From a virus: DNA of 20,824 nt. The number at the start of each line of letters is the position of its first letter. Positions within the stretch are counted from its first letter, which is position 1. The stretch lies in the IMG/VR virus record IMGVR_UViG_3300012005_000064, positions 1 through 20,824 of that record. One strand, written 5' to 3'. Positions 1 to 20,824 of the stretch are shown in pieces. The notes below the pieces were generated by a model. The model was given only the letters and a program-made list of their open reading frames with translations. It ran no database searches and was not told the DNA's origin. The position numbers were made by a program, and so were the translations under genes.

Positions 1-857
1 GTAGTTCCGGTTGTCCCCGCTGAGTCAGCAGATTTAGATTGTACAAAAGCAGGGGAACTTCCTTGGCTATCAAAAGTATTAACCGCATCTACCTGTACGT
101 TATATTCAATAGTATCTGAATCTGCGTCAGTTCCTGTAAAGGCTAAATCTGGAGTAGTGGAAACGCCTGTTGCGGTGTCTGTGGGGGTGTTTAGGGCAAC
201 GGTGGGGGCGGAGTTATACTGTAACTCTATGGCTATTGAGGCAAAAGCAGAGGCTGTAGTACTACCCATCGTAAGGGTGGCCGATGTCTCCCCAGATACT
301 ATGTGGGATGTCTCGAATCCAGTCGCCGGAGTAGCGTAACCTGAGTCTCGGTCTTCGGTATAACCTGTTCTCGGTGTAACGGTTGTTGAACCGTTCGTAC
401 CGTTGGCTACGCCCATGATAATCGGGTTAGAACTTAAGGGTGTAAGAGATAATACAGGGGCAGGAGTTGTGCCTGAAGTTCCGGTACTTTGTCCACCGCT
501 TGAGCGAACGGCACTCGCACCAGTTAAGGTCATCCCGGATACCGAGTAGACAATCAAGCCACCACCAGTAGAGCCAGACTGAGCCGAGGTGAAAATGGTG
601 GATGAAGCGGCTGGGATAAGAGCAGTTCGCACCCACACACAGAGAGTACCCGTCGTAGAAAAACCAGTTCTATCTACGTCTACTTGGGTATATGTACCCG
701 ATTGATTATCGGTAACTGCCGTGGGGCCGCCAGATAAACCCGAACTAGCACAGACAACAACAATTAAATCACCTACCGCAGGAGTAGCGGTAACTGTTTT
801 ATCACCAGCAGTCGTGGTAAAGACTGATGTGCCGAGGACAGCGACTGTAGCAGCCAT
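1..857 (-). CDS. Tail-fibre or adhesin-like structural protein, 3' end cut by window edge
   Basis: About 285 residues are visible; the stop lies beyond base 1. The ATG at 857 follows a GAGG ribosome site 10 bases upstream, and the gene starts 11 bases after the preceding stop. Residues 1-215 are rich in Thr, Ser, Gly and Val and read as an all-beta sandwich, with a pattern (VGDLIVVV near 28-35, NGSTTVTPRTGYTEDRD near 155-171) that I associate with secreted or phage surface proteins. From about residue 216 an Ig/fibronectin-type repeat begins (APTVALNTPTDTATGVSTTP), whose Asp-rich loop (GTDADSDT, 242-249) resembles cadherin-like or bacterial Ig-like repeats. No signal peptide is seen, as expected for a virion protein. 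It is the last visible gene of the leftward late operon. A receptor-binding or fibre role is inferred from composition and position; no specific family is proven. Confidence 0.7.
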   Translation of the reverse strand, partial: MAATVAVLGTSVFTTTAGDKTVTATPAVGDLIVVVCASSGLSGGPTAVTDNQSGTYTQVDVDRTGFSTTGTLCVWVRTALIPAASSTIFTSAQSGSTGGGLIVYSVSGMTLTGASAVRSSGGQSTGTSGTTPAPVLSLTPLSSNPIIMGVANGTNGSTTVTPRTGYTEDRDSGYATPATGFETSHIVSGETSATLTMGSTTASAFASIAIELQYNSAPTVALNTPTDTATGVSTTPDLAFTGTDADSDTIEYNVQVDAVNTFDSQGSSPAFVQSKSADSAGTTGT

Positions 858-868
858 CAGAGGCTACC

Positions 869-1366
869 TCATTCTTCCCAAATCACATAACAGATGGCGT
901 TCACCCCTGTAGGAGCTGTCACCCTTATTCTAAGAAACTTAGAAACTGGTACGACTGGCTCCCTGCCAAGAGGGTATTGTTTTATATATTGATTGGTCGG
1001 GGCTACTAGTTGGGCGTCAAAGACTCTCGTAGCCGTAATTGTACCCTCGGCTATAGCACCGTCGTTAAACATCGTAGCACCTGTACCACCGACACAGAGC
1101 GAAGCAGGTGCGTCGGATGGCCCAAACACTGTAGGTGTTAAAGATGTACCAGCAGTAGCAGCTACATCAGTCTGTAGGAGTTCTACTAAGATTGGCGTGG
1201 CGGCTGCTGAACCGTCAAAACTAATGCCCCACTCTACAACTTTCAGATTCTCGGTTGAAGGGGTTGCTATCTGCAAAAGCGTGTTAATAGCCCCAGTGGT
1301 CGCCATCTTAACCTGACCAGCAGTTGTTGGTGACGCTCCGTTATATGCGATGTATAGATTTGCCAT
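869..1366 (-). CDS. Small beta-rich phage structural protein, unknown family
   Basis: A 165-residue protein whose ATG at 1366 has a good ribosome site (AAGGA, about 7 bases upstream). It is rich in Ala, Thr, Val and Gly, has no membrane segment or signal peptide, and ends in CYVIWEE. The start (MANLYIAYNGASPTT) and the evenly spaced short hydrophobic strands suggest a compact beta fold like those of decoration, head-fibre or minor tail proteins in environmental phages. It lies between the sugar-modifying cassette and the fibre-like gene, so it is probably made late and assembled into the particle. I do not recognise a named family. Virion decoration or a tail accessory role is an inference from composition and neighbours. 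Confidence 0.65.
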   Translation of the reverse strand: MANLYIAYNGASPTTAGQVKMATTGAINTLLQIATPSTENLKVVEWGISFDGSAAATPILVELLQTDVAATAGTSLTPTVFGPSDAPASLCVGGTGATMFNDGAIAEGTITATRVFDAQLVAPTNQYIKQYPLGREPVVPVSKFLRIRVTAPTGVNAICYVIWEE

Positions 1367-1378
1367 TTTGTTTTCCTT

Positions 1379-2038
1379 TTAGTTAAAGATGTTCCTGAGT
1401 GTATTATTATCCCAATCAGGTATTTTATCAATAGTGGACTCCTGAAAGTTGACAGCTGTGCTTCTGTCTCGAAAGTGCTGGATGTGCCACTTATTATATG
1501 TGGTGTTCGTCTCATGGCGTATATCTATCATCGGTACTTTACTTCTGAAAGTTTCGTACTCTATCCCTACGGTGGGTTCAAACTTTCGGTCAAACTTGTC
1601 TGGGTCAAAACTAGCCACCCGTTCTCGGTAGTACTCTAGCGCCAACTCTCGATAACACACTAGACCGCTGACCTGTATAGCTTCCCAAGTCACTGCCAAC
1701 CCATCCTTCCTAACTTTGTACCACGCTAGGTCATAGTAAAACTTGTTTTTGGTGGGCGGCGTGAAGTCAAAATGCTCTGGAGCGTAAAGGCAGTCATGCT
1801 CGGTGAAAAACACAATATCTGCTGTGGAGGCTTCGAGGGCGGCGAGTATCTGCTTAAACATCGTCAGATAGCCACGCTCTAAAGGTAGGACAATCCGCAC
1901 ATCCCCGAAGTCTATCGGTTGGAGGGAACAGGCCACAATATTTCCCGTGAAAGCTTTTCTCAGTTGTTCACGACAGGCTAGGGCTATCTTCTCATCAAGC
2001 CTGTTCTCGGTGTAGTAGATTGCTGACTTAGTGGGCAT
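1379..2038 (-). CDS. Putative glycosyltransferase (GT-A-like), paralog of the 4465-5121 gene
   Basis: The start is placed at 2038 (MPTKSAIYYTENR, 219 residues), not the upstream ATG at 2140. The 2038 ATG has a GAGGAAGAA ribosome site and overlaps the HNH gene's stop by 11 bases, whereas 2140 would lie deep inside the HNH gene. The N-terminus has a Rossmann-like strand (SAIYYTENR). Residues 80-91 read EHDCLYAPEHFD, an acidic motif at the end of a hydrophobic strand (DIVFF) as in GT-A nucleotide-sugar enzymes, followed by PEHF. The same block occurs in the 4465-5121 gene as EDDVLYSPEHFK, so the two are paralogs. The C-terminal part has conserved-looking His residues (DIRHETNTTYNKWH). It probably transfers a sugar in the cytoplasm. 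Acceptor and donor are unknown, and the glycosyltransferase call rests on motif shape and context. Confidence 0.6.
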   Translation of the reverse strand: MPTKSAIYYTENRLDEKIALACREQLRKAFTGNIVACSLQPIDFGDVRIVLPLERGYLTMFKQILAALEASTADIVFFTEHDCLYAPEHFDFTPPTKNKFYYDLAWYKVRKDGLAVTWEAIQVSGLVCYRELALEYYRERVASFDPDKFDRKFEPTVGIEYETFRSKVPMIDIRHETNTTYNKWHIQHFRDRSTAVNFQESTIDKIPDWDNNTLRNIFN

Positions 2039-2606
2039 TTTCTTCCTCTTTGAGTTTAGCGAGGTCAGCATACATCTTAGTAGCTCTATACCCCCAAGTA
2101 TCTGTCTGTTTATGACAATCGTGGCAAAGAGTACGTCCATTACTTAACTCGAACCGTAATTTAGGATGGTATGCGAATGGTTTTATGTGGTCGGCGTTCA
2201 GTTTGCCCCCACGCTGGCCACAACTCTGACAGGTATAATCATCTCTTTCATAAACTGCCGACCGCCATTGTCTATATTGTAGAGAATGTCTAATTATCTT
2301 ACTCTCTGCCGTTTTGCCCCCTTGCCAGTTAGAACCTTTTTCTCCCCTACGAATATCACTCATTATCTTTTTTTGTTCTTCTGACCAATGTTTACCTTGA
2401 AACCATACTGGCTTACCACGGTTAGCCTTACCTATCTTTGCTCTGGTTTCCTCTGATACTGGACGACCTGTTAAGCCTTTGACCAATTTCCTTCTTGTTT
2501 CTTCCGATATGGGCGGTTTTTTCTTACCTTTTAGAGCAAGACTAATCTTAGCCCTAGTTTCTTCAGAAAGAGGATGCCCCTTGTGTGCGTAAACTCCTAC
2601 TGGCAT
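2028..2606 (-). CDS. HNH homing endonuclease with NUMOD3-type DNA-binding repeats
   Basis: A 192-residue protein. The N-terminal half holds repeated short helices of NUMOD3 type: SEETRAKIS (14-22), SEETRRKL (34-41), SEETRAKIG (51-59) and SEEQKKIM (75-82), separated by Gly/Lys-rich linkers. These modules bind the DNA target in homing endonucleases. The C-terminal half is an HNH nuclease: CQSCG (126-130), then ADHIKP with catalytic-type D139-H140, N156 in SNGRTL, and CHDCH (161-165), which completes the zinc site. Such genes are mobile and cut phage DNA lacking them. It sits between two glycosyltransferase genes. A TGATATAAT element lies just upstream, with no strong ribosome site. Its stop overlaps the next gene by 11 bases, so insertion did not break that gene. 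Confidence 0.9.
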   Translation of the reverse strand: MPVGVYAHKGHPLSEETRAKISLALKGKKKPPISEETRRKLVKGLTGRPVSEETRAKIGKANRGKPVWFQGKHWSEEQKKIMSDIRRGEKGSNWQGGKTAESKIIRHSLQYRQWRSAVYERDDYTCQSCGQRGGKLNADHIKPFAYHPKLRFELSNGRTLCHDCHKQTDTWGYRATKMYADLAKLKEEENAH

Positions 2607-2612
2607 AGTTAC

Positions 2613-2621
2613 ATTATATCA
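2613..2621 (-). promoter_or_regulatory. Extended -10 promoter element ahead of the HNH gene
   Basis: Read on the minus strand the site is TGATATAAT, a perfect TG-N-TATAAT extended -10 box. It lies in the 32-base gap after the upstream glycosyltransferase stop. No convincing -35 is seen at 17 bases. Transcription would begin about 7 bases downstream, at or next to the ATG at 2606, so the message could be leaderless or nearly so. A chance AT-rich match is possible. Confidence 0.4.
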
Positions 2622-2638
2622 CTTTCACCTCTGTTAAA

Positions 2639-3619
2639 CTACTTAGATTCACTCTCTTTTAAGTCCTGTAAATCTTTATCCGTCCAGTGTTCTATCGGCC
2701 AGAACTTCTCTACCAACCAACTGAGTCTATGGATTTGGTTTGGGACTTTATTATTAAAGAATATCTGTCTGGCTCTCCTTTTCGCTTCTTCTACCTTGCT
2801 CTGTTGTTGTGGGTAAGGAAAACTGAAGTTTCCCCCTTGCGTCCTAAAACAGTGAGCGTACCAGGTAGTATGAACACACATGACCTGACCTCCCGTCAGC
2901 CAGGTAGAGCAAGCTACCTGCAATCCTTGCGACCCCCACGAGCCGAAGCTCTCATCTCCTAAGTTAAGCGCCCAGTACTTCTCTCGGGTACACATAAAAA
3001 AACTCCCTTGGAGTGACATTGTGGGGGTGATGTTGCCCTGACCTTCGGGACGTTTCTTAAATGAGCCGAAGTATTGGAAGTGGGGTTCGGGGTCGAAACA
3101 GTAGGCCGTACTCTGGGGCGAAGGCTTCGCGTACCAAACAAGTTTCTTCTTAAACTTATTAACGTCGCTATTTCCACAATCAGCGCACTCCGTAAAAGCG
3201 TTACGAGTAGTAGGTGTCGGTCCCTGGTAAGTACGTTTACCACATTTCATACATTTCCAATCAAAAACGTGGAGATTGCGCATAATTGGAACCATCGTCC
3301 AGTCGAGGTTATCTCCAGCAGCCTCTAGCATCTTTGTGTCCCACCCATAGTCAAATGCACAGTGAGCATCGCACTTAACTACCCATTTAGCTTTGGATAA
3401 CTTCACGCCCAAGTTAGTAGCAGCCCTTTGGCCTATAGACTCACTGAGGTAGATAATCTTGACATTTGGGTGGTCTACAATTCCTGGTTCTGCCCAATGG
3501 CCGTCGAGGACAACTATAATTTCTGTCTTTGCAGTACTGTTCTTGAGAAGGTCAGCCACAGTATTACTAATCCATTCTTCGTTTCTAGCTGGTATTATTA
3601 CTGAAACCTCATATTGCAT
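2639..3619 (-). CDS. Family 2 glycosyltransferase with an inserted zinc ribbon
   Basis: A 326-residue enzyme that overlaps the SDR gene upstream by 11 bases. The N-terminus is a clear GT2 GT-A domain: VSVIIPARNEE (5-15), EIIVVLDGHW (33-42), SIGQRAATNLGVKLSKAKWVV (61-81) and the metal/nucleotide motif CDAH (83-86). DxH in place of DxD recalls the polypeptide GalNAc-transferase group. Between the two halves sits a CxxC...CxxC pair (C123, C126, C145, C148), which looks like a small zinc ribbon and is unusual for GT2 enzymes. Later motifs (GSFFMCTREKYW, WGSQGLQ, TWYAHCF) fit an acceptor-binding part. There is no membrane segment, so it acts in the cytoplasm. It is a paralog of the 7587-8564 gene. 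Donor sugar and acceptor are unknown; a virion protein is a plausible acceptor. Confidence 0.8.
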   Translation of the reverse strand: MQYEVSVIIPARNEEWISNTVADLLKNSTAKTEIIVVLDGHWAEPGIVDHPNVKIIYLSESIGQRAATNLGVKLSKAKWVVKCDAHCAFDYGWDTKMLEAAGDNLDWTMVPIMRNLHVFDWKCMKCGKRTYQGPTPTTRNAFTECADCGNSDVNKFKKKLVWYAKPSPQSTAYCFDPEPHFQYFGSFKKRPEGQGNITPTMSLQGSFFMCTREKYWALNLGDESFGSWGSQGLQVACSTWLTGGQVMCVHTTWYAHCFRTQGGNFSFPYPQQQSKVEEAKRRARQIFFNNKVPNQIHRLSWLVEKFWPIEHWTDKDLQDLKESESK

Positions 3620-4472
3620 GGTGAATCCAGTCCTTTACACTTACCTGTGGATACCAACCCATCTTGGCTGCTTTAGTATTATCTGCTAGGGTCTGTCGTG
3701 CCTCACCAAGTCGAGTGCCGACATTCTTCGTAGTGCCACCAACCATATCAGCTATTTCGTTAATTGACCAGTTACGCCCAGAACCGATGTTAAATGTTCC
3801 CTGCCAGTCTACGGCCGCCAGATTAGCCCGAGCAACGTCTCCCACATAGGTAAAGTCACGCCGTTGTTCACCATCATTCGTTATTGGGAGTGGCAGACCT
3901 TGCTTGCGTTGTTGGAGGAAGATGCCCAGAACCGTAGCATAAGCCCCCTCCAGTAGTTGTCGTTCCCCGTAAACATTAAAATAGCGGAGGATTGTGTAGT
4001 CTAGGTTGTACAACTCGTGGTATAACTCAATATATTGCTCACAGACGTATTTCTGGAGGGTGTACGGGTTCTTTGGCTTGATAGTCGCAGTCTCACGTGC
4101 TGGCAGGTCATCACCCTTATAAATAGAACTGGAGCTGGAGAAGACGAGTTTTGTTTTTTGGCGACGACAATATTCCAAAACCTGAAGGGTGCCGTTGATG
4201 TTAGTGTCGTGTGCTGGCATCGGGTCTTTTATAGACGGTTGGATTCTCGGTAATGCCGCTAAGTGAAAGACGCAATCGAACCGTTCCAGAATACTCCAAA
4301 ACACTGGGTCGGTGATGTCACGGTTATAGAACTGTGACTGGGGGTTTATATTCCCTATTTTGCCATTGGAGAGATTATCTACCCCTGTGACCTGATGCCC
4401 CTGCGAAATAAGTAAATCAACTACATGACTGGCTATAAATCCGGCTGAACCTGTGACAAGATATTTACTCAT
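3609..4472 (-). CDS. NAD-dependent nucleotide-sugar epimerase/dehydratase (extended SDR)
   Basis: A 287-residue protein of the UDP-glucose 4-epimerase / dTDP-glucose 4,6-dehydratase superfamily. It shows the NAD-binding motif TGSAGFIASH (7-16), an acidic residue at the end of strand 2 (VDNLSNG, 31-37), HLAALP (70-75), the Ser track SSSSSIY (112-118) and the catalytic YTLQK (Tyr137, Lys141). It also has RYFNVYGERQ and RRDFTYVGDVARA, typical of sugar-nucleotide enzymes. At 287 residues it is shorter than the usual 310-340. The start overlaps the upstream gene by 8 bases and the end overlaps the GT2 gene by 11, so all are probably translated together. It probably makes or epimerises the activated sugar used by the neighbouring glycosyltransferases. 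The exact substrate cannot be read. Confidence 0.88.
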   Translation of the reverse strand: MSKYLVTGSAGFIASHVVDLLISQGHQVTGVDNLSNGKIGNINPQSQFYNRDITDPVFWSILERFDCVFHLAALPRIQPSIKDPMPAHDTNINGTLQVLEYCRRQKTKLVFSSSSSIYKGDDLPARETATIKPKNPYTLQKYVCEQYIELYHELYNLDYTILRYFNVYGERQLLEGAYATVLGIFLQQRKQGLPLPITNDGEQRRDFTYVGDVARANLAAVDWQGTFNIGSGRNWSINEIADMVGGTTKNVGTRLGEARQTLADNTKAAKMGWYPQVSVKDWIHHAI

Positions 4473-5121
4473 ATAGTCCTACTATATCAGATGCCTTCCC
4501 CCAGTATGGCACTTCTGTAGCCCTGATTTGCCCCAAAGCTTTCCTCGTACCTAGCCCAGCAAACTGGAGGTTAGTCTGGTGAGAGAATACTATATTTGGC
4601 GGATTACAATAGAAGTCCTGTGATGGGTAAGGGGTTGTGCCGAGTTGGTTATCGTACTTGCCAGGTTCTCCGTAAATGTTTATATCTATCTTGCTATCGT
4701 CAGGATGCAAGCGGAAGCGTTCTTCGAGGTAGTCAATGAGCATCTGGCGCTCGCAGATAAGCCCATTGAGGTTCCTACGCCCTCCTGGAGCTTTGTAAGT
4801 GAACATCGGCTCACCCCAGGTGAACAGACTCCATGAGTTCATATTATAGCCCCAATGCCCTGGTTTTGGACGGAACTTGAAGTGTTCAGGAGAATACAGC
4901 ACATCGTCCTCACAACAAGCAACGTACTTAGTGGTTGCTTCTTTCGCACCTTGTAGGACTTGGCGGTATATCTGGGCTTGGGAACGTGGCAAGTCAGAAG
5001 GTTTCTTGATGACAACTAAAGGTATTCCATCTAATGCTTCTAGTAGTTTAACTTGGAGTGAAGCCCTGAAATAATCAGGAGCTTCTTCGGCGGTATAAAA
5101 CAGGGCGGTGGTGTCGCTCAT
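4465..5121 (-). CDS. Putative glycosyltransferase (GT-A-like), paralog of the 1379-2038 gene
   Basis: A 218-residue protein. It begins MSDTTALFYTAEE, a strand-turn start like that of its paralog (MPTKSAIYYTENR). After a hydrophobic strand (TKYVACC, 64-70) comes EDDVLYSPEHFKFRP (71-85); the acidic triplet is in the place of a DxD metal site, and PEHF is shared with the paralog. The C-terminal part has NPPNIVFSHQTNLQF, again with a His that aligns roughly with the paralog's HETN. It is probably a cytoplasmic sugar transferase. It overlaps its upstream neighbour by 4 bases (ATGA type) and the epimerase by 8. Family assignment is by motif and context only; no donor or acceptor can be named. Confidence 0.6.
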   Translation of the reverse strand: MSDTTALFYTAEEAPDYFRASLQVKLLEALDGIPLVVIKKPSDLPRSQAQIYRQVLQGAKEATTKYVACCEDDVLYSPEHFKFRPKPGHWGYNMNSWSLFTWGEPMFTYKAPGGRRNLNGLICERQMLIDYLEERFRLHPDDSKIDINIYGEPGKYDNQLGTTPYPSQDFYCNPPNIVFSHQTNLQFAGLGTRKALGQIRATEVPYWGKASDIVGLYE

Positions 5122-5762
5122 TTCCTAGTAGCCTCTATATATTTACACTTTAGATAATCTTCATCAATAGTATTGACTGTTGCTCCGGATGATTCTATTG
5201 CTTTAGATAGAGACAATTGGTCTATAGAATGGAATAGAGAAGTATTTAACCACCAGATAGTCAACATATCCCTGGCAGGGGTGGTGTTCTTATAAATGAA
5301 AGCCGTAGTAGCATAAAGTTTTCCATCAGGTTCAACTACAGCCATTTGGTCGTCGAGGCGTTCCCCCTCGTACCTGGGTAAGATATATTTTCTTTTCTTC
5401 CCAGAACTTTCCAACTCCAGTCGCTCCCTTAGATAGTTGGCTTCTTCTTGTACAGTCTGCCGTTTGTTGTGGCGAAAGAAGGCTGCATCAGCCTCACCCA
5501 ACTGTTCCAGGAACCATATAACTGAATCCTTATCCGATAACCGACAAGATGAATCTATCCATATATAGTAGTCATAATCAGGAAGCATCTGCCAGGAAGT
5601 CATCTTTGGTATGCGAGCTTGTAGCCGGGGCGTCATAGCATTAAAGCGGGGAGGGAAATTGAGGTCTGTAAAAAGGTGAAAGTCGCAGTCAAGTGACTGC
5701 TTAATTTGAGGAACGGGGTTGTCGAACTCTCCGAGATTTGCAGAGACAACGAGTACCTTCAT
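5118..5762 (-). CDS. Glycosyltransferase-like protein (DUF616/GT8-like)
   Basis: The start is placed at the ATG at 5762 (MKVLVVSANLGEFD, 214 residues), which overlaps the upstream methyltransferase stop in an ATGA arrangement; longer readings need a TTG start. The features are those of retaining GT-A-like proteins: an N-terminal strand, FTDLNFPP (31-38), then PDYDYYIWIDSSCRL (61-75), where the WID-x-S segment occupies the usual DxD position. ERLDDQMAV and YATTAFIYKN follow. The layout resembles the DUF616 group, for which a glycosyltransferase role is suspected. There is no signal peptide or membrane helix. It is tightly embedded in the cassette, which supports a sugar-transfer role. The substrate is unknown. 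Confidence 0.6.
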   Translation of the reverse strand: MKVLVVSANLGEFDNPVPQIKQSLDCDFHLFTDLNFPPRFNAMTPRLQARIPKMTSWQMLPDYDYYIWIDSSCRLSDKDSVIWFLEQLGEADAAFFRHNKRQTVQEEANYLRERLELESSGKKRKYILPRYEGERLDDQMAVVEPDGKLYATTAFIYKNTTPARDMLTIWWLNTSLFHSIDQLSLSKAIESSGATVNTIDEDYLKCKYIEATRK

Positions 5763-6394
5763 GGTCGAATCCAAAACCAAGAACGTCCGTGGTCCCGTAC
5801 TTCACCCTCAACAATAGCTTTACTACCGACCACGAACCACGGTTTAATATGCCAAGCATCCGTATAACCATTAACTACCTGATAAACATGAATCCGGGCA
5901 TTACCTGAATGTTTGAAATAGTCGTCGCCTGAAATAATCCCACCAGGTCGTACCTTCTTGCTCCAAAGTTCTATGTCCTGGGTAGCATTGTAGAAGCTGT
6001 GGTCGCCATCGATATACACCGCATCAATCGAATTATCGGCAAAGTCATCCACGGCTGCATCACTGTAATCACGGATAAAGGTGTAATTGGGGTATTTGTC
6101 TAACTTGTCGTGAGCCTCTTGCTCGAACGCCTCAAAAGTAGACTTTCGAACATGGTCGCGGTAGCCCTGGTGGGGTTCATAGGGGTCAACGCCCCAGACC
6201 AGCGCTTCGGGATTTGCTTTGCAAAGAGTCTCAGAATACCCTCCGTTCCTCACTCCTATTTCAACAATCTTACGGAAACCAAGTTCGGCAAATAGTTCAG
6301 CCATGTTATCACGCCCATAGTTCGGTATTTCTATCGGCATCCTGCCACTTGGGTCGAGGTTAAACTTCTGTAATATATGGTCTAACGTATTCAT
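5759..6394 (-). CDS. Class I SAM-dependent methyltransferase (Methyltransf_24-like), copy A
   Basis: A 211-residue protein. SAM-binding motif I is VEIGVRNGGYSETL (44-57), the next acidic strand is WGVDPYEP (67-74), and IDAVYIDGDHS (123-133) followed by GGIISGDDY (151-159) is the signature of the Methyltransf_24 group. Members of that group often sit in glycan clusters, where they methylate sugars or related small groups. The protein is clearly paralogous to the 6857-7450 gene (ELGF near motif I, VYLDGAH, GGIVAMDDF). Its N-terminal codons overlap the small SDR gene by 35 bases, and its stop forms ATGA with the next gene. Sugar O-methylation is the most likely role, by context. Acting on a protein or small molecule is not excluded. 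Confidence 0.8.
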   Translation of the reverse strand: MNTLDHILQKFNLDPSGRMPIEIPNYGRDNMAELFAELGFRKIVEIGVRNGGYSETLCKANPEALVWGVDPYEPHQGYRDHVRKSTFEAFEQEAHDKLDKYPNYTFIRDYSDAAVDDFADNSIDAVYIDGDHSFYNATQDIELWSKKVRPGGIISGDDYFKHSGNARIHVYQVVNGYTDAWHIKPWFVVGSKAIVEGEVRDHGRSWFWIRP

Positions 6395-6857
6395 CTACTA
6401 CCTCCTTTACCTTCATTCTCTTGCCCGGAATATTGATTTCGCTACTCCACCTTGGTATCTGGGATATCCAATGGAGGAACTCGTCTTCTTCGACAATATA
6501 CCGGTACTCGTCTCTAATCTCGGCGTCTGGGTGTGCTTTTAGGTGATTTATCAGGGTGTGGGGATTATCACCCCAAGCTATATTACCTATGCGAATAATG
6601 GTGTAGCGATTGAAGCGAGCGCGTACTACGTCCTCCATGGCGTGTTTATGGCGCATATAGCGACTTGTACCATTCAAGACACCTAGGGAGCTGAAATAGA
6701 CGATATGAGCGTCTGGTGACTGCTCACAGAGTAAGTCTTCCTCCCGACGGTATTCCGTCTCAGGAATATAACCGCTATTACTGACGCCACTAGCAAAGAA
6801 TAGTAGGTCGTCACGTTCGGGGAGGACTGAGGCAATATCGCCACCACCGATTATCAT
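6360..6857 (-). CDS. Compact SDR/epimerase-like protein
   Basis: Only 165 residues, about half the length of an ordinary sugar-nucleotide epimerase. It starts MIIGGGDIASVL, a reduced Gly-rich nucleotide-binding turn, and keeps the SDR catalytic pattern: VYFSSLGV (53-60) for the Ser position and YMRHK (Tyr67, Lys71), then TIIRIGNIAWGDNPH. The usual adenine-binding stretch between the Gly turn and the catalytic strand is much shortened. The ATG at 6857 overlaps the previous stop (TAATG) and the end overlaps the next gene by 35 bases, so the frame looks intact, not decayed. It could be a minimal reductase or epimerase, or a non-catalytic relative. I rank a sugar-nucleotide reductase role as likely but unproven. 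Confidence 0.6.
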   Translation of the reverse strand: MIIGGGDIASVLPERDDLLFFASGVSNSGYIPETEYRREEDLLCEQSPDAHIVYFSSLGVLNGTSRYMRHKHAMEDVVRARFNRYTIIRIGNIAWGDNPHTLINHLKAHPDAEIRDEYRYIVEEDEFLHWISQIPRWSSEINIPGKRMKVKEVVDEYVRPYITEV

Positions 6858-7450
6858 TACAGAGTCTTAAATTCCTTGTAGCTTTTATTCTCATGGGGGT
6901 GCTGGGGACCATCGTTGTGGGTTTTTATAAACCAAGCATTCGGTTGTCTGTTATCTCTGACTGGGTCATCTATGTTCCAGTCAGTTAATTTTAGATTGTA
7001 CTGGTGGTGTGAGGTGAACTCCGTAGCCGCTTGCATGACACCGCCTTTACCGCTGGGGAAGTCGTAAAAATCGTCCATAGCAACTATCCCACCTATCCGT
7101 ACCTTCGGAGTCCAGGCGTTAATGTCAGCTTTAATGTTCTCGTAATCGTGAGCCCCGTCCAGGTACACAAAGTCCAGAGAGCCGTCAGGAACGTCCTTTG
7201 CAGCCTCGACGCTATACTTCTTGATAATAGTTACATTGTACGGTTTAAGGCGCTCTAAACACTCGTCTTCAGCTCGTTTATATTTACCTTCACCCCAAAT
7301 ATCACAGCAAGTTAAATCAAGTCCCAGTATAGCCTTACAGAGTATTTCTGAAAAGTAGCCAGTAAACACACCTACTTCAGCACCTTTTGTAAATCCTAGT
7401 TCGTTAAAGTAGGGAGCTAGTTCTATTCGGTTTGTAAATTCTTGAGTCAT
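6857..7450 (-). CDS. Class I SAM-dependent methyltransferase (Methyltransf_24-like), copy B
   Basis: The start is set at the ATG at 7450 (MTQEFTNRIELA, 197 residues). There it overlaps the stop of the small upstream gene as ATGA and has a GGGTAAAGGT ribosome region. The longer reading from 7474 would begin inside that small gene. Motif I is AEVGVFTGYFSE (24-35). LDFVYLDGAHDY (92-103) and GGIVAMDDFYDF (120-131) are the family hallmarks. It is paralogous to the 5759-6394 methyltransferase but has a different C-terminus (PQHPHENKSYKEF). It probably methylates a sugar or sugar-linked group made by this cassette. The target is not determined. Confidence 0.8.
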   Translation of the reverse strand: MTQEFTNRIELAPYFNELGFTKGAEVGVFTGYFSEILCKAILGLDLTCCDIWGEGKYKRAEDECLERLKPYNVTIIKKYSVEAAKDVPDGSLDFVYLDGAHDYENIKADINAWTPKVRIGGIVAMDDFYDFPSGKGGVMQAATEFTSHHQYNLKLTDWNIDDPVRDNRQPNAWFIKTHNDGPQHPHENKSYKEFKTL

Positions 7451-7590
7451 ACCTTTACCCTTTCTTTTAGACAAAACTTACAAATAAATATTCGCACTTG
7501 CTTCTTGTCAAAACCAATCATTCCATAGAAATTTACTTTAACTTGTCTTCTTTCGTTGCCCATATACATGTACTCATGTTTACACATCAT
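7447..7590 (-). CDS. Small Cys/His protein, 47 residues, possible zinc knuckle
   Basis: This short gene fills what otherwise looks like a gap. It starts at 7590 (MMCKHEYMYMGNERRQ) and ends in CKFCLKERVKV. Both ends are translationally coupled: its ATG overlaps the glycosyltransferase stop as ATGA, and its TGA overlaps the methyltransferase ATG the same way. The C-x-H near the start and C-x2-C near the end (C3, H5, C37, C40) form a plausible single zinc site, as in short phage zinc-ribbon proteins. It is basic and has no membrane segment. The function is unknown. It may bind nucleic acid or help a neighbouring enzyme. The tight double overlap is the main reason to regard it as real. Confidence 0.6.
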   Translation of the reverse strand: MMCKHEYMYMGNERRQVKVNFYGMIGFDKKQVRIFICKFCLKERVKV

Positions 7591-8564
7591 GTTCTTAACC
7601 CTTTCAACCATTCATCGTTGGCATATTTTAGCGTTGAGTAATCAGTTAATTTGTCCCGTTCCACCCGTTCTTTCCAGTCGGCCGACCAGCCAGGCATATC
7701 AGGGAACTTCTCGGTTACAAACCAGTTCCAATCATGCTGGAAGTCTTGAGTGGTGAGCCAGTATTCTATCGTGTAAAGACGGCCTTTTTCCATACCCTCC
7801 TGGTGTTTGCGGTACTGCTCGGTAGTGAAGGCGTAGCCCTTACCCTTCTTGCCTTTATGCCAGTGGGAGTAGTGACAGCCCTTATCTACGACTACGCGGC
7901 CGCCAGTGAACCAAGTCTTGAGTGTAACCTCTTGGGCCTCTGAAGTGAATGTCCCGTAATTGGTGGAATCTAGTTCACCTATAATATTATCCCAGTGGGT
8001 GCGGCGCATAAAGTAGCACGACCCTTGAGAGGTGGGCGTGTCGTCTATTTCGATGTTCTTCCTATCGTAGTAGCGCTGCCGCCACTCTGCTCCGTGTAGT
8101 CCTTGAGTCTTATCGAACGGTTTAACGTAGGGATATTCGATGTACATATAATCTACGGGTGGGCGTTTGTCACCCTCTGAGTCAGTGGTCAGTGTCCAAG
8201 TTTCCGGTTCTAGGCGATAACGGCGAGGGATTACTACCCAGTCGGCCTCACAGATTGTAGACAATCGTACATCATAACCCTGCGACACGCCACATTGCTC
8301 ATCTATAATCAGCAGGAAATCACCCTTAGAAACAGCTACCCCAGCGTTTATAGAGGCTCGCATACCTAAGTTGTCGTGTAGTTCCCCGTGGTGGATTTGG
8401 ACTAATCGAGGGTCATCGGTGGGCATTTCATCGGGTTCCGGCCAGCGACCGTCATACACCACAACGACTTCTACCTCCCCTTCCGCTTTCATAAGTAAGT
8501 CATTGACTGTTTTAGCTAACCACTGGGCAGACCGGCTAGGGATGATAACAGAGACTACACCCAT
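7587..8564 (-). CDS. Family 2 glycosyltransferase
   Basis: The start is placed at the ATG at 8564 (MGVVSVIIPSRS, 325 residues); a GTG three codons earlier is possible. The GT2 GT-A domain is clear: VSVIIPSRSAQW (4-15), EVVVVYDGRW (32-41), DNLGMRASINAGVAVSKGD (64-82), then IIDEQCGVSQGYD (86-98). The metal motif position reads DEQ where DxD or DxH is expected, so metal binding may differ. The later part has TSQGSCYFMRRTHWD, WFTGGRVVVDKGCHYSHWHKG and a C-terminal WNWFVTEKF that parallels WLVEKFW in the paralog at 2639-3619. No membrane helices are present. It is the second gene after the capsid terminator and overlaps both neighbours. It probably glycosylates a virion or host glycan acceptor; the exact acceptor is unknown. 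Confidence 0.82.
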   Translation of the reverse strand: MGVVSVIIPSRSAQWLAKTVNDLLMKAEGEVEVVVVYDGRWPEPDEMPTDDPRLVQIHHGELHDNLGMRASINAGVAVSKGDFLLIIDEQCGVSQGYDVRLSTICEADWVVIPRRYRLEPETWTLTTDSEGDKRPPVDYMYIEYPYVKPFDKTQGLHGAEWRQRYYDRKNIEIDDTPTSQGSCYFMRRTHWDNIIGELDSTNYGTFTSEAQEVTLKTWFTGGRVVVDKGCHYSHWHKGKKGKGYAFTTEQYRKHQEGMEKGRLYTIEYWLTTQDFQHDWNWFVTEKFPDMPGWSADWKERVERDKLTDYSTLKYANDEWLKGLRT

Positions 8565-8839
8565 CGTAACCACCGCATAAATTCTTCTTTATCACAAACT
8601 ACTTCTTCTCGACCTATTTGGAGCAAGAACATGCCGTCGGGTACACTACGACGCGCTTCGTATTCGGCAGGTTCTGAGTTAGTATGCCATACCATACCTA
8701 GTCCATTACTCATTCGCCACCAGCCCCGGTCGCGTACTTTCATCAGGTCGAAACCACCCTTGCGTCGGTCGGTACGTTCCGATGCCTCGATTTCCGCTCG
8801 TTCCTGTTCGGTTTTGGTGGTTCTACGCATTAGTCTCAT
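8555..8839 (-). CDS. Hypothetical protein at the head of the sugar cassette
   Basis: About 94 residues if started at the ATG at 8839 (MRLMRRTTKTEQERAE). The open frame reaches 8854, but that ATG lies in the T-tract of the terminator just upstream, so a later start is more likely; 8830 is also possible. None has a strong ribosome site. The N-terminus is a charged helix (TEQERAEIEASERTDRRK). The second half (GWWRMSNGLGMVWHTNSE, then RSVPDGMFLLQIGREEVVC) reads as a small mixed beta fold ending in EEFMRWLRWV. It overlaps the glycosyltransferase start by 10 bases. I do not recognise a family. It could be a small accessory protein. Confidence 0.5.
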   Translation of the reverse strand: MRLMRRTTKTEQERAEIEASERTDRRKGGFDLMKVRDRGWWRMSNGLGMVWHTNSEPAEYEARRSVPDGMFLLQIGREEVVCDKEEFMRWLRWV

Positions 8840-8850
8840 TGTAGCATTAA

Positions 8851-8874
8851 ACAAAAAAAGCTCCGAATGGAGCT
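8851..8874 (-). terminator. Rho-independent terminator after the capsid genes
   Basis: Read on the minus strand, AGCTCC-ATTC-GGAGCT forms a perfect 6-bp stem with a 4-base loop, followed directly by TTTTTTGTTT. It lies 21 bases after the stop of the 8895-9128 gene. It would end or reduce transcripts from the capsid promoter before the sugar cassette, making read-through a way to keep cassette expression below capsid expression. Confidence 0.85.
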
Positions 8875-9372: not shown

Positions 9373-10227
9373 TTACGCAGCTGTAGTGCGGGTAACGTCA
9401 AGGACTGAGCCTGCACGTTCGATACCGACACCGTAAACAGTGTGTAATACCGTGTTCCAACCGATGTCACGAACCACATATTCCATTTCAAACTTTGGAG
9501 CCTGCTGTTGAATCAGCGTAATGGCGTTCTTGTGGAAGAATAGGTTGTGAGTGGTAGGAACGTTTCCACCGTGGTAGATGTCCATACCGTAGAGAGAAGA
9601 TACTAGACCTTCTGAGCCGTCGACAGCCTGACCGGTTTTGCCAGTCTGGTCGTAGGCGACATACTTGTTGACACCTTGTAAATCGTTCTTGGTGTTATGA
9701 CCAACAACGCCACGGCGCAAAGCCTGTGGGGTGTTAGCGGTGTCAAAAGCGTTCACGATAGCGAGAACATCAGCGTCATCTACGGTCGTACCGCAAGAGA
9801 CGGCTGTACCAGCACCAGAGTACAAGGCACCAAGGTCAGTATCGACCTGGCGCGCTAAAGCTTCAGCCATGCGCTGTTGGAATGCAGCCTTTAGGTCGTA
9901 GTTGCTCTGGATTTTGGCGATGTCTTCGATGAGGACAGCGACGTAGTAGTGCTTGTCGATAGCTAGGGCGATTGCCGTGCCATCTGGGGAGTCAAACGTA
10001 ACCTGGGTGCTAGCTGCTTTAGCGCGAGCGTTTACACCGGCTACGAATGGCACGTTAATAGTGTCACCACCACCGGCAGCGAGGCCGGAGCGGTCTTGGA
10101 CGAGTTTCGCCAGTTGAAGTTCTTTATCAAAAGGCTGTTGAATGTCGCGTGTCCAAAGTTCCTGCACATACTGTGCAGTCTGGGCGATGGAGCGCGTGAC
10201 ATTAGAAGCGGTAGTTGGAGCTGCCAT
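9373..10227 (-). CDS. Major capsid protein (HK97-fold type, by context)
   Basis: A 284-residue protein, the right size for a short HK97-fold coat protein. It opens MAAPTTASNVTRSIAQTAQY with a helical N-arm (VQELWTRDIQQPFDKELQLAKLV), then a Gly-rich stretch (DRSGLAAGGGDTINVPFV) and a long helix carrying EDIAKIQSNYDLKAAFQQRM (about 101-120), as in the spine helix of the fold. It ends VRDIGWNTVLHTVYGVGIERAG, a pattern common to coat proteins of environmental tailed phages. It directly follows the scaffold gene in the same leftward unit. The start has only a weak purine-rich ribosome site (AGAAAGAAA). I am confident about the role, less so about the exact subfamily. Confidence 0.85.
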   Translation of the reverse strand: MAAPTTASNVTRSIAQTAQYVQELWTRDIQQPFDKELQLAKLVQDRSGLAAGGGDTINVPFVAGVNARAKAASTQVTFDSPDGTAIALAIDKHYYVAVLIEDIAKIQSNYDLKAAFQQRMAEALARQVDTDLGALYSGAGTAVSCGTTVDDADVLAIVNAFDTANTPQALRRGVVGHNTKNDLQGVNKYVAYDQTGKTGQAVDGSEGLVSSLYGMDIYHGGNVPTTHNLFFHKNAITLIQQQAPKFEMEYVVRDIGWNTVLHTVYGVGIERAGSVLDVTRTTAA

Positions 10228-13966: not shown

Positions 13967-15352
13967 CTAAAGTAGCCCAAATTCGTCTAGGGACTTGACA
14001 ACGGACGATTGAGGTACCTTCTCCTCTTTCGGGCCGCCGAATTTGAAGAATAACTCTAGGTAGCGAATGGCGTCCATTATGTTGTCGTTGGTCTTCTCGG
14101 GTTTCTCAGATATTGGGCGGTTTAGCTTGATTTCCTTATAGCGGTAGTGAACCCACTCGTTAATCGACTTTTTGCAGTTACTAGTCACGTAGTAATTGGG
14201 CTTCGGTTCGCCCATAATCTGTATCTTGGGGCGTAATCGCTTCCTGAGTAGGGCAATACCAGAGACGATTCGGCTCTCGTCACCCCCTGATTTGGGGCTG
14301 GGAATCACCGGCATAGCCTTGCTTGCCATGTAGTCGATGAGGTCAGGACGGGAGGAGTCGGCTACAATACCGGTAAGCCGTCGGTCGCCCATTTTAGCCT
14401 TTATTTCAGATATAAGGTCATCAATCTGGAGTCTAGTTTCGTAGATTTCATCATACTGGTACCAAATATCGTCATTCGAGATACGAATAAAGGCGGCAGC
14501 CATCGGGTGCCCCTCGACGAAGCCCCAGTCTAGGGCAATATAGTCGGTGCCCTTGTCGGGAACCTTGTCGAGTGGAATAACGTGGATTTTCTTGTTAAAC
14601 ATTGGATAAACAGCTCCTTGCTGGCTAAATGGTATCAGTTCCATCTCCTGGAGGAAAGGACCGAGTTTGTCATCTCGCTCGGCTTCCTCCCGTTCCTCGG
14701 CTACCCACTCCGGCAGAATGAGGGGGTTATCGCGCCAAGTGGTCTTGGAATAAAACCAACGGTCGTTATTTTCGGCTTTGTCGAGCAATTCGTTCCAATG
14801 GTCGATGTCTTTGGCAGTACCCATAAATACAGCCCAACCGGCGGTGGTGGCGAAGAATGGTTTGTAAACGGTATCCCAATTATAAGGGTCTTGGTCCTGG
14901 TACTCATCAAAGACCATACCGTTAGACTGCCCCCCACGGTGCTGTTCGGCTTTGTCGCTTCCAACTAGCCGGATAGTGCTAGGTGGTTGGGAATGGTCTT
15001 GCATGACATCAATCGTGGTGCCATCGGGCATTTTCACGGGAAAACTAAGCCCTTTTGCCTTATCACCGAAGTAATGGAATGTAATTGTTAAAGTAGATTT
15101 ATCAGTTTTCTGAATCATCTGGGGCATGATGGTATGCAGATACTGGTTCCAGGCTACTGTCTCAGCCTGGAGGTACTCTTTGAATACCATGTGGTGCTGA
15201 CCTTGGTTCAGGATTGAACTGAGCATCAACTGCTGGATAGCCCATTGGGTCTTGCCAACACGCCTACCCCAGTACAACACCCCACGGGTGTAGCCGTCGA
15301 GGAGAAAGGCTCGATGCGCTCGAACTTGTACTGGGAAGGGGGCGTATGCCAT
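13967..15352 (-). CDS. terL: Terminase large subunit (packaging ATPase/nuclease)
   Basis: A 461-residue motor protein. The ATPase part shows a Walker A motif GRRVGKT (29-35), Walker B MVFDEY (145-150, D148 and E149) and a coupling motif GTAKD (177-181). The C-terminal nuclease has ALDWGF (D274), VADSSRPD (D331) and NDNIMDAIRY (D422/D426), the acidic residues that hold metal in the RNase-H-like fold. It translocates DNA into the procapsid through the portal and cuts the concatemer. The start lies 2 bases beyond the upstream stop and has little of a ribosome site, so it probably depends on coupled translation. Length and motif order are complete. This is one of the surest calls in the window. 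Confidence 0.95.
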   Translation of the reverse strand: MAYAPFPVQVRAHRAFLLDGYTRGVLYWGRRVGKTQWAIQQLMLSSILNQGQHHMVFKEYLQAETVAWNQYLHTIMPQMIQKTDKSTLTITFHYFGDKAKGLSFPVKMPDGTTIDVMQDHSQPPSTIRLVGSDKAEQHRGGQSNGMVFDEYQDQDPYNWDTVYKPFFATTAGWAVFMGTAKDIDHWNELLDKAENNDRWFYSKTTWRDNPLILPEWVAEEREEAERDDKLGPFLQEMELIPFSQQGAVYPMFNKKIHVIPLDKVPDKGTDYIALDWGFVEGHPMAAAFIRISNDDIWYQYDEIYETRLQIDDLISEIKAKMGDRRLTGIVADSSRPDLIDYMASKAMPVIPSPKSGGDESRIVSGIALLRKRLRPKIQIMGEPKPNYYVTSNCKKSINEWVHYRYKEIKLNRPISEKPEKTNDNIMDAIRYLELFFKFGGPKEEKVPQSSVVKSLDEFGLL

Positions 15353-15353
15353 G

Positions 15354-16127
15354 CTACAACTTCTTGGTCATAGAGGCGAAGCCAGCCGCCATACTCTCTG
15401 TCTTATCAGAGGTGACTTCGTAGACCTCGACCAATTTGTTACCAATGACAACCTCTTTTTTGTTGTTGGAAGCTGGGGGTGGGGTCGGATAGAATGCCTC
15501 TATCAGCCAATCCCGGAAGCGTAAGTAGCGCATCTCGTCGAGGAAGTCCTTTTCATTCTCTGTATCGACAGCGATGTCATTCTGGTTAGCAATATATATA
15601 GCAGCATCCGGGTCTTCATGGAAGATGCCCTGGAGGATGACAAAACGGCGATTAGTTAGTTCTCCCGTCAGGTCATCATAAACCTTCACAATCAGCTTAA
15701 TATTAAACCGTGGTTCCTTGGTACGGATACGGTCAGCTGTCTCGTACTGGGAAAGCTGTACCTCCCACTTCAGTTCGTAATTATCCTTGAAGGCGAAGCG
15801 TTGTAGTCTTGCTTCGTTACTGAGGCGTTCGGTGGGGTCGGGGTAATAACTACTCGATACTCGGTACCGTTCGTAGGTGCCGGTCATGGTACCGTTGACA
15901 TTCTGGACGTTGCCCTGGGGCTGTAATGGGGCTACCTGAGCCTGTTTAAGGCGTTGTATCTCAGCCAGAGCCTCTTGCACCTGCGCCGTCAGGGTGGCGA
16001 GGTCTGGGTCAGTTGTGGGGGGTGGGGCTACTGCTATCTGTTCATTTAACTTCTTTTGTTCTCGAGCTGCTTTTAGGCGTTCCCCGGCAGCCTTACGCTG
16101 TTCAGGGGTCCATTGTTTCTTTGCCAT
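15354..16127 (-). CDS. Conserved-looking unknown protein between terS and terL
   Basis: A 257-residue protein with an AAGGA ribosome site before the ATG at 16127. It begins KKQWTPEQRKAAGERLKAAR, a basic helix, followed by a Pro-rich linker (VAPPPTTDPD) and a likely coiled coil (LATLTAQVQEALAEIQRLKQ, about 44-63). The second half is a mixed fold (ELKWEVQLSQYETADRIRTK; NIKLIVKVYDDLTGELTNRR; DFLDEMRYLRFRDWLIEAFY). No catalytic motif is seen. The spot just before terL is where small terminases or DNA-binding packaging helpers often lie, so it might help recognise DNA, but a small-terminase-like gene is already present upstream. I do not recognise the family. Confidence 0.65.
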   Translation of the reverse strand: MAKKQWTPEQRKAAGERLKAAREQKKLNEQIAVAPPPTTDPDLATLTAQVQEALAEIQRLKQAQVAPLQPQGNVQNVNGTMTGTYERYRVSSSYYPDPTERLSNEARLQRFAFKDNYELKWEVQLSQYETADRIRTKEPRFNIKLIVKVYDDLTGELTNRRFVILQGIFHEDPDAAIYIANQNDIAVDTENEKDFLDEMRYLRFRDWLIEAFYPTPPPASNNKKEVVIGNKLVEVYEVTSDKTESMAAGFASMTKKL

Positions 16128-20081: not shown

Positions 20082-20429
20082 ATGAAATTATCAAACAATA
20101 AAGACGGTCAAGCAGTTTCTGTTTTGCATGGAGAGAACTTCATGCGCCGGATTGCTGCGCTGCCGAAAGGCGAAACCACTAAGGCTAAGATGTATACAGT
20201 CGGACACTCAGAAACAGACCACAACCACGTTCTGACTTCACCTACTGAGATGGAAATACTTACCTTTAATGGTCATGAATATGTTCTGATTGACGAAACG
20301 GCTGAACTGACCCACCAGAAAACCTTTGACATCCACGAAACAGTATTGGTCGAGCCTGGCGTGTATGAGATAACGCACAAAACGGAGTACTCACCTTTCG
20401 ATAAAATTGTGAGGGCTGTGTATGACTGA
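20082..20429 (+). CDS. His-rich conserved hypothetical protein, partner of the DUF6745-like gene
   Basis: A 115-residue protein with a clear AAAGGAG ribosome site. It shows GHSETDHNHVL (41-51), LTHQKTFDIHETVLVEPGVY (76-95) and EITHKTEYSPFDKIVRAVYD (96-115). The spaced His residues (GHxxxxHxH ... HxxxxxIHE) and the end (EY-x-P-x(4)-R-x-V-x-D) match a small family that, as far as I recall, is often the neighbour of DUF6745 repeat proteins in phages and bacteria. It is probably a small beta barrel, perhaps metal-binding like cupins. The TGA overlaps the ATG of the next gene. The biochemical role is unknown. Confidence 0.65.
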   Translation: MKLSNNKDGQAVSVLHGENFMRRIAALPKGETTKAKMYTVGHSETDHNHVLTSPTEMEILTFNGHEYVLIDETAELTHQKTFDIHETVLVEPGVYEITHKTEYSPFDKIVRAVYD

Positions 20430-20824
20430 TAAAATAACCAAACTTACCCCCGAACAACAAGCAGACGTAGGTGTAACCTTTCACAAATGGCGCGATGAGT
20501 ATTCAGTTCAAAATGATAACATTGCAGCCGAAAGGGTTATAGAACAGATATATACACGAATTGGTAAGAAAAAACCGTTAGTAATATTTGTCAAGTCCCC
20601 GCTTGCAATGGTCGTACTCTCAGCAATTTGGCCTGATTTTGTAAAAAGACTCAATAGTAAACTAAAAATAAAAACTACGCTTGGCGCTAGTCTCGGCGAT
20701 AGTCTCGACGATAGTCTCCGCGCTAGTCTCCGCGCTAGTCTCGGCGATAGTCTCGGCGATAGTCTCCGCGCTAGTCTCGACGATAGTCTCGGCGATAGTC
20801 TCCGCGATAGTCTCGACGATAGTC
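20422..20824 (+). CDS. DUF6745-like protein with tetrapeptide repeats, 3' end cut by window edge
   Basis: 134 residues are visible, starting at the ATG that overlaps the previous stop (TATGACTGA). The N-terminal domain (MTDKITKLTPEQQADVGVTF; then EYSVQNDNIAAERVIEQIYT; then IGKKKPLVIFVKSPLAMVVL) has the shape of the DUF6745 start: LTPEQ, a helix region, and a GKKxP...SP pair. From residue 88 it becomes a run of four-residue units (SLGD, SLDD, SLRA, SLRD), each coded by 12 bases with AGT CTC fixed. Such repeats (SVGASVRA in actinophage relatives, QLxx in others) are known in this family. They may fold into a long solenoid. Function is unknown, and the window ends inside the repeat. Confidence 0.7.
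   Translation, partial: MTDKITKLTPEQQADVGVTFHKWRDEYSVQNDNIAAERVIEQIYTRIGKKKPLVIFVKSPLAMVVLSAIWPDFVKRLNSKLKIKTTLGASLGDSLDDSLRASLRASLGDSLGDSLRASLDDSLGDSLRDSLDDS
20683..20824 (+). repeat. 12-base tandem repeat coding SLxx units
   Basis: At least eleven full units of AGTCTC plus a variable six bases (GGCGAT, GACGAT, CGCGCT, CGCGAT) run to the window edge without break. The fixed and variable positions are sharply separated: Ser-Leu is constant, while the next pair is one of GD, DD, RA or RD. The end is not visible. Confidence 0.9.

Follow-up and report, generated by a model that had tools for sequence, protein, structure and literature searches.

Glycosylation of phage virions is known in few cases. 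Capsid glycosylation has been reported for the mycobacteriophages Che8 and Rita (Freeman et al. 2023, as cited in PMC11256854), and a related phage, Maravista, carries its transferases near the 3′ end of the genome (PMC11256854). In the GtrAB O-antigen conversion of temperate phages, phage GT2 glycosyltransferases likewise change a surface. Here we analyse a linear IMG/VR record of 20,824 bases, IMGVR_UViG_3300012005_000064 (the window, meaning this whole stretch), in which a phage head operon on the minus strand leads into a cassette of sugar and methyl-transfer genes. On balance, we read the cassette as a cytosolic mucin-type O-glycosylation kit, with sugar tailoring and O-methylation, for virion surface proteins bearing (Ser-x-Ser-Pro)n stalks (SxSP stalks). 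Like Che8 and Rita, as the citing paper presents them, it would supply phage-encoded glycosyltransferases thought to decorate virion proteins; the acceptor described there is the capsid protein, unlike the mucin-like stalk that is the likely acceptor here. In contrast to Maravista the cassette lies beside head genes, and in contrast to GtrAB it is embedded in virion gene order. A tblastn search with two cassette transferases (g1 and g8, below) and two g8 relatives matched none of 50,697 phage records, including phage Rita, and the open literature, outside which most subscription papers lie, yielded no isolate phage or paper describing such a system.

A ten-gene run downstream of the head genes

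The cassette is a tight run of ten open reading frames (g1 to g10) on the minus strand, from 8573 to 1379. An earlier sequence-only reading had proposed a ten-gene glycosylation and methylation cassette. All ten frames are present, with the two GT2 enzymes and two methyltransferases it named, but the run resolves into seven genes of sugar or methyl chemistry and a single, interrupted GT2–glycosyltransferase gene (g8 and g10), with g9 encoding a NUMOD3-HNH endonuclease rather than a sugar enzyme. The two short-chain dehydrogenase/reductase (SDR) proteins of that reading are a clear epimerase, g7, and the half-size g3, whose match is weak; the half size is conserved, homologues in relatives having 142–181 residues. 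Overlaps of 4–35 bases, claimed for almost all genes, occur at six of the nine internal junctions, the others being one overlap of 1 base and two gaps of 112 and 32 bases. Three paralogue pairs are evident (g1/g8, g2/g4 and g6/g10). The features, with E-values where matched, are:

g1: 7587-8573, minus strand, GT2 related to polypeptide N-acetylgalactosamine (GalNAc) transferases (Pfam GT2, 3.4e-6; start GTG 8573 or ATG 8564)
g2: 6857-7474, minus strand, Methyltransf_24 methyltransferase (Pfam, 4.6e-16)
g3: 6360-6857, minus strand, half-size SDR-like protein (NAD_binding_10, 0.0022, weak and below cut-off)
g4: 5759-6394, minus strand, Methyltransf_24 methyltransferase, paralogue of g2 (Pfam, 3e-15; 39% identity to g2)
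g5: 5118-5780, minus strand, TOD1/MUCI70-like glycosyltransferase (Pfam TOD1_MUCI70, 4.7e-9)
g6: 4465-5121, minus strand, unclassified glycosyltransferase, paralogue of g10 (blastp to g10, 3e-12)
g7: 3609-4472, minus strand, NAD-dependent nucleotide-sugar epimerase (Pfam Epimerase, 1.7e-54)
g8: 2639-3619, minus strand, GT2 of the GalNAc-transferase fold carrying a zinc-ribbon-like insert, N-terminal half of the g8–g10 enzyme (Pfam GT2, 7.2e-14)
g9: 2028-2606, minus strand, NUMOD3-HNH endonuclease between the two halves (Pfam, 3.5e-19 and 2.1e-6)
g10: 1379-2038, minus strand, GT-A-fold glycosyltransferase, C-terminal half of the g8–g10 enzyme (start corrected to ATG 2038)

The cassette is not a chance assembly, because all of its genes except that for the HNH enzyme recur as a block, at the same operon position, in other phages. 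Cassette relatives (loci are numbered with an L, genomes with a G) also carry UGDH-like (PF00984) and RGP (PF03214) genes; RGP we take to be the UDP-arabinopyranose mutase family, and the two genes hint at pentose chemistry. The nearest PDB entries to g7 are labelled UDP-glucose 4-epimerase (2.8e-54), a label from which its donor and product are not readable.

Kinship of g8 and g1 with polypeptide GalNAc-transferases

Family profiles place both GT2 proteins closest to the enzymes with which animals begin mucin O-glycosylation: among PDB sequences, the best matches to the g8 profile are polypeptide GalNAc-transferases (2.1e-12), and that of g1 matches GalNAc-T4 best (9.6e-11). Structure prediction, one of the checks proposed with the sequence-only reading, gave a GalNAc-transferase fold for g8. 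Its AlphaFold2 model has a predicted local distance difference test (pLDDT) value of 93, and all 50 of the top 50 Foldseek matches are GalNAc-transferases (1e-15 to 5e-13, TM-score over the query about 0.6). Residues D84, H86 and H256 form a D-x-H...H metal triad, invariant in 46 of 46 homologues and aligned with the DAH and H of GalNAc-T1. The g10 model (pLDDT 95.4) is a confident GT-A fold whose Foldseek matches are GT-A proteins, with no close named relative; neither g6 nor g10 has a Pfam family above cut-off, and their joint family found no convincing match among PDB sequences.

The g8 protein shares with the GT27 polypeptide GalNAc-transferases the GT-A fold, the metal triad, a Gal/GalNAc-T-type region and, by prediction, a Ser-rich, Pro-containing acceptor. 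Unlike GT27 it is prokaryotic and cytosolic, carries a zinc-ribbon-like insert and has another GT-A domain either fused to it or located after it. We class it as working like GT27 and not as a member, because the C-terminal ricin-type lectin domain is absent. The insert, in the middle of g8, has conserved cysteines and matches the zinc-ribbon ribosomal protein eL37 (E ~0.003–0.02).

Serine–proline stalks encoded beside the cassette

Neighbours of these cassettes encode proteins with long SxSP tracts, often in the open reading frame just before g1 or just after g8–g10, with flanking order kept. Comparison with related phages lacking the cassette, also proposed earlier as a check, separates the two groups: an SxSP protein is present in 55 of the 61 viral g8 loci that extend 2.5 kb or more past g8, versus none of 73 capsid relatives without the cassette (803 kb, 1085 open reading frames). 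Within the window's own capsid lineage, counting contigs with at least 4 kb downstream, the figures are 5/5 with the cassette and 0/29 without (Fisher, 3.6e-6); the window and L023 were left out because their contigs end too soon past the cassette. The tracts have a median length of 128 residues and, over 197 unique examples, use all six serine codons, which argues for selection at the protein level.

The association also holds in reverse. Viral contigs were searched, blind to g8, with a DNA pattern for SPSxSPSxSPSxSP, returning 120 stretches that were mostly other low-complexity sequence. Nineteen had an in-frame tract, and 13 of these, mainly (SP)n, were set aside. In the six contigs that remained, the SxSP tracts have a residue other than proline at x. 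One of these contigs is 2.4 kb; the other five, all longer, carry g8, either within the locus (L220 and L252, the latter sharing its record with L169, which the g8 set had already included) or elsewhere in the record (L262, L311 and L313; 1e-123 to 1e-144).

Weighing the readings

The cassette contains no flippase or lipid-carrier enzyme, and none of its proteins has a membrane segment (no 19-residue window above 1.56 on the Kyte–Doolittle scale). Viral SxSP proteins lack a signal-peptide-like start in 95 of 97 cases (the other two are signal-like), and a twin-arginine motif occurs in 0 of 97. This pattern is what would be expected if the proteins were modified in the cytosol and left together with the virion. 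In the mechanism we propose, g8 and g1, with their polypeptide GalNAc-transferase fold, would start glycans on serines of SxSP stalks in the phage surface proteins encoded next door; g5, g6 and g10 would lengthen the glycan, g7 and perhaps g3 would modify the nucleotide sugar, and O-methylation of the glycan would fall to g2 and g4. Built into the virion and released on lysis, the modified proteins would clothe it in a mucin-like coat, possibly similar to the surface of the host itself. Peptide O-glycosylation itself, the donor sugar, the order of steps and the virion location of the SxSP proteins are what we infer here. The chances seem about even for a wider proposal: a prokaryotic mucin-type O-glycosylation common to Patescibacteria and their phages, in which cytosolic GalNAc-transferase-like enzymes act on (SxSP)n stalks and the virion coat resembles host surface glycoproteins.

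Several observations weigh against the mechanism proposed for the cassette. The window itself has no SxSP tract, including in the two genes after the cassette as far as the second extends, and this is the main gap; that second gene, near the expected tract position, is truncated and has no informative homologue. Because the window ends 1.4 kb after the cassette without such a tract, we infer the SxSP acceptor in this phage; the repetitive Ser/Pro-rich acceptor encoded with the transferase is found for the family and is not seen in the window. Six of the 61 g8 loci are without an SxSP tract by this criterion (two of them, L093 and L117, have looser Ser-rich repeats). The contigs are correlated by descent, and an independent-pairs test on the capsid tree had one usable pair. 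At 326 residues, g8 has no Pfam lectin match and is without the lectin domain of animal GalNAc-transferases, its identity to them in the structural match is only ~17%, and in g1 the usually conserved H93 is replaced by Q (D91 and H237 are kept).

The sequence-only reading had the phage attaching a methylated or epimerised sugar to its own virion, which may shield it from recognition. Glycosylation of virion proteins with a tailored, methylated sugar is still the best reading, given the GalNAc-transferase homology and the SxSP linkage in relatives; a mucin-like stalk is a likelier acceptor than the capsid protein. Were the enzymes to glycosylate the major capsid or tail-tube protein, as in Che8 and Rita, the SxSP proteins would be a separate accessory. 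The cassette does adjoin head genes, capsid glycosylation is reported for those two phages (through PMC11256854), and the window shows a capsid protein and no SxSP tract. Yet SxSP proteins accompany the cassettes in phages of unrelated capsid families, and the 29 capsid relatives counted above lack the cassette, so that we hold this alternative to be unlikely. The earlier suggestion of a modified host polymer that blocks superinfection is weakened because neither membrane segments nor a flippase or lipid-carrier enzyme occur in the cassette; the absence of membrane parts rules out host-glycan conversion as the leading view. A broader form, in which a host surface polymer or a host SxSP glycoprotein is altered to change receptors or block superinfection, draws on the cassettes and SxSP proteins in Patescibacteria chromosomes near tatC, where host SxSP proteins could be substrates, and on a weak match of g8 to the GtrB-like phrog_841 (0.013). 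Against it stand the position inside the late structural gene order and the SxSP proteins that phages themselves encode, and we give it roughly one chance in nine.

Whether SxSP tracts are modified at all can be doubted, too: they may be plain spacers, linked to the cassette by joint exchange of a surface-variation island. Both parts are mobile, HNH genes recur within cassettes, and the window's g8 groups with L096 and L097 rather than with its capsid relatives. This we consider improbable, as the link, together with the order of flanking genes, is maintained in different phage groups and in bacterial chromosomes, the reverse search found g8 in all five long contigs, and the transferases resemble enzymes acting on Ser/Thr peptides. 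The methyltransferases g2 and g4 match PHROG 2675, labelled DNA methyltransferase, from which one might suppose that the cassette modifies phage DNA bases. Pfam, however, places both in Methyltransf_24, g2 has a weak Pfam match to TylF (macrocin O-methyltransferase), and protein is the substrate of the GT2 relatives. The window showed no obvious hydroxymethyl-pyrimidine gene, although no search was aimed at one. DNA modification was rejected as the leading view on the Pfam assignment against the PHROG label, and its probability is very small.

If mucin-type modification of SxSP stalks is correct, an enzyme and acceptor module recognisable by sequence would make virion glycosylation predictable, with the SxSP tract and g8 as a signature for finding further systems. 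It would supply a glycoprotein system for Patescibacteria and for their phages, which are largely uncultured, offer a testable case of surface mimicry and yield new peptide glycosyltransferases working in the bacterial cytosol.

An endonuclease gene between two halves of one enzyme

Homologues of g8 and g10 form a single open reading frame of 541–566 residues in six relatives (L022, L024, L025, L029, L094 and L095). In the window g9 sits exactly at the linker between the two domains, which is empty of genes in all six; g8 ends with its own stop. The true start of g10 is most likely ATG 2038, preceded by GAGGA and 11 bases inside the end of g9, which cuts the g9/g10 overlap from 113 to 11 bases. 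An intron or intein was considered for g9 and discarded: there is no Rfam match, and all three genes, g8 to g10, begin at a start and end at a stop of their own.

The arrangement recalls nrdA/mobE of phage Aeh1, a gene split by a homing endonuclease and still functional (PMC2988022). As there, a free-standing HNH gene lies in a coding region that is continuous in relatives, and both halves are kept; unlike there, the split gene is a two-domain glycosyltransferase, the break falls at the domain linker and the endonuclease is of NUMOD3 type. Fission may predate insertion: in L097, which with L096 is nearest to the window's g8, the g8 and g10 genes are separate and overlap, and no HNH gene accompanies them. 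NUMOD3-HNH endonucleases recur inside or beside cassettes in ~20 cases (L095, L110, L118, L123 and L129 among them). At L131 (9968-11555) such a gene lies directly 3′ of g8 and its C terminus resembles that of g8, as if inserted in the gene end.

Exchange among phages and the Patescibacteria

More than 380 places in viral contigs carry the module, and the head genes next to sampled cassettes belong to different PHROG families (1005, 422, 267, 1357 and 283). A scan with the window's capsid protein gave 80 loci. Seven contigs of this lineage have the cassette (the window, L022, L023, L024, L025, L029 and L095), always directly after the small gene u1 or within one gene of it; the rest are without it, and g8 was absent from the 20 cassette-less capsid relatives whose records were searched whole. 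On the capsid tree the cassette label requires three changes, at least two of them forced. The g8 tree places the window with L096 and L097 (97% SH-aLRT), apart from its capsid relatives, and intermixes phage and bacterial sequences; cassettes have therefore been exchanged. Nearest matches of individual window cassette genes are spread over several different genomes. An attempt at dN/dS gave dN of 0.31–0.51 with synonymous sites saturated.

Scanning 84,980 genomes returned 47 cassette loci, nearly all in Patescibacteria (binning errors are possible for contigs so assigned), 26 of them with SxSP proteins. Several look chromosomal, with no visible phage head genes. In nine of the 47 (L171, L174, L175, L188, L191, L201, L202, L209 and L210) tatC lies within 10 kb of the cassette, often with tatA; three Saccharibacteria loci have tat genes and cassette in line, and in L202 an SxSP protein follows. 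This neighbourhood possibly reflects export of folded glycoproteins, or an integration hotspot; the SxSP proteins have no twin-arginine motif.

Of 380 sampled genomes of the phylum, five gave a strong g8 match, one of these five having been chosen in advance. The capsid family had three distant matches in the 380 and none in nine g8-positive Patescibacteria genomes. One of the three, on the Patescibacteria-binned contig G129 (L342), belongs to a phage whose capsid protein is distantly related and which also carries a g8 cassette and an SxSP protein. Since cassette loci are nearly all in this group, G129 holds such a phage, and g1, g7 and g10 find their best bacterial match (among the loci compared) in Saccharibacteria, the window phage probably infects one of the ultra-small Patescibacteria, perhaps a Saccharibacterium.

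Genes flanking the cassette in the window

Along the minus strand, the head genes are followed by three small genes, the cassette and then t1 and t2, the last cut by the contig end. By position, the head operon comprises small terminase, large terminase, portal, scaffold and major capsid protein; PHROGs names only the large terminase (TerL, 2.8e-22) and the major head protein. The flanking features are:

Major capsid protein: 9373-10227, minus strand, PHROG major head protein (7.3e-27), the anchor for locating relatives
u1: 8555-8854, minus strand, small conserved protein directly upstream of the cassette, as its homologues are in relatives
t1: 869-1366, minus strand, after the cassette, no SxSP tract, 69% homologue in L070
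t2: 3-857, minus strand, truncated at the contig edge, near the spot where relatives have the SxSP-tract protein

Homologues of u1, 33–38% identical, stand before the cassette in the other six contigs of the capsid lineage; in the window u1 overlaps g1 by 19 bases. The sequence-only reading had set the cassette between capsid and fibre-like genes. Head genes do precede it, but the fibre-like label for 1366-869 and 857-3 finds no support, as neither t1 nor t2 has a PHROG match. Relatives of the two among the loci compared are limited to L070 for t1 and short partial matches to t2 in L037 and L338, and t2, used as a query for the continuation of the phage, returned one weak relative.

Two cassette-less relatives have a GroEL-like gene (523–537 residues) and a GroES-like gene, named by eye, downstream of the capsid gene (L009, 8993-10808; L012, 2244-4053). 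Outside the late operon, at 20422-20823 on the plus strand, the window encodes a protein of serine tetrapeptide repeats, (S-L/V-x-x)n, and another cassette phage, L104, has a protein of the same repeat type outside its late operon (15081-15842, minus strand).

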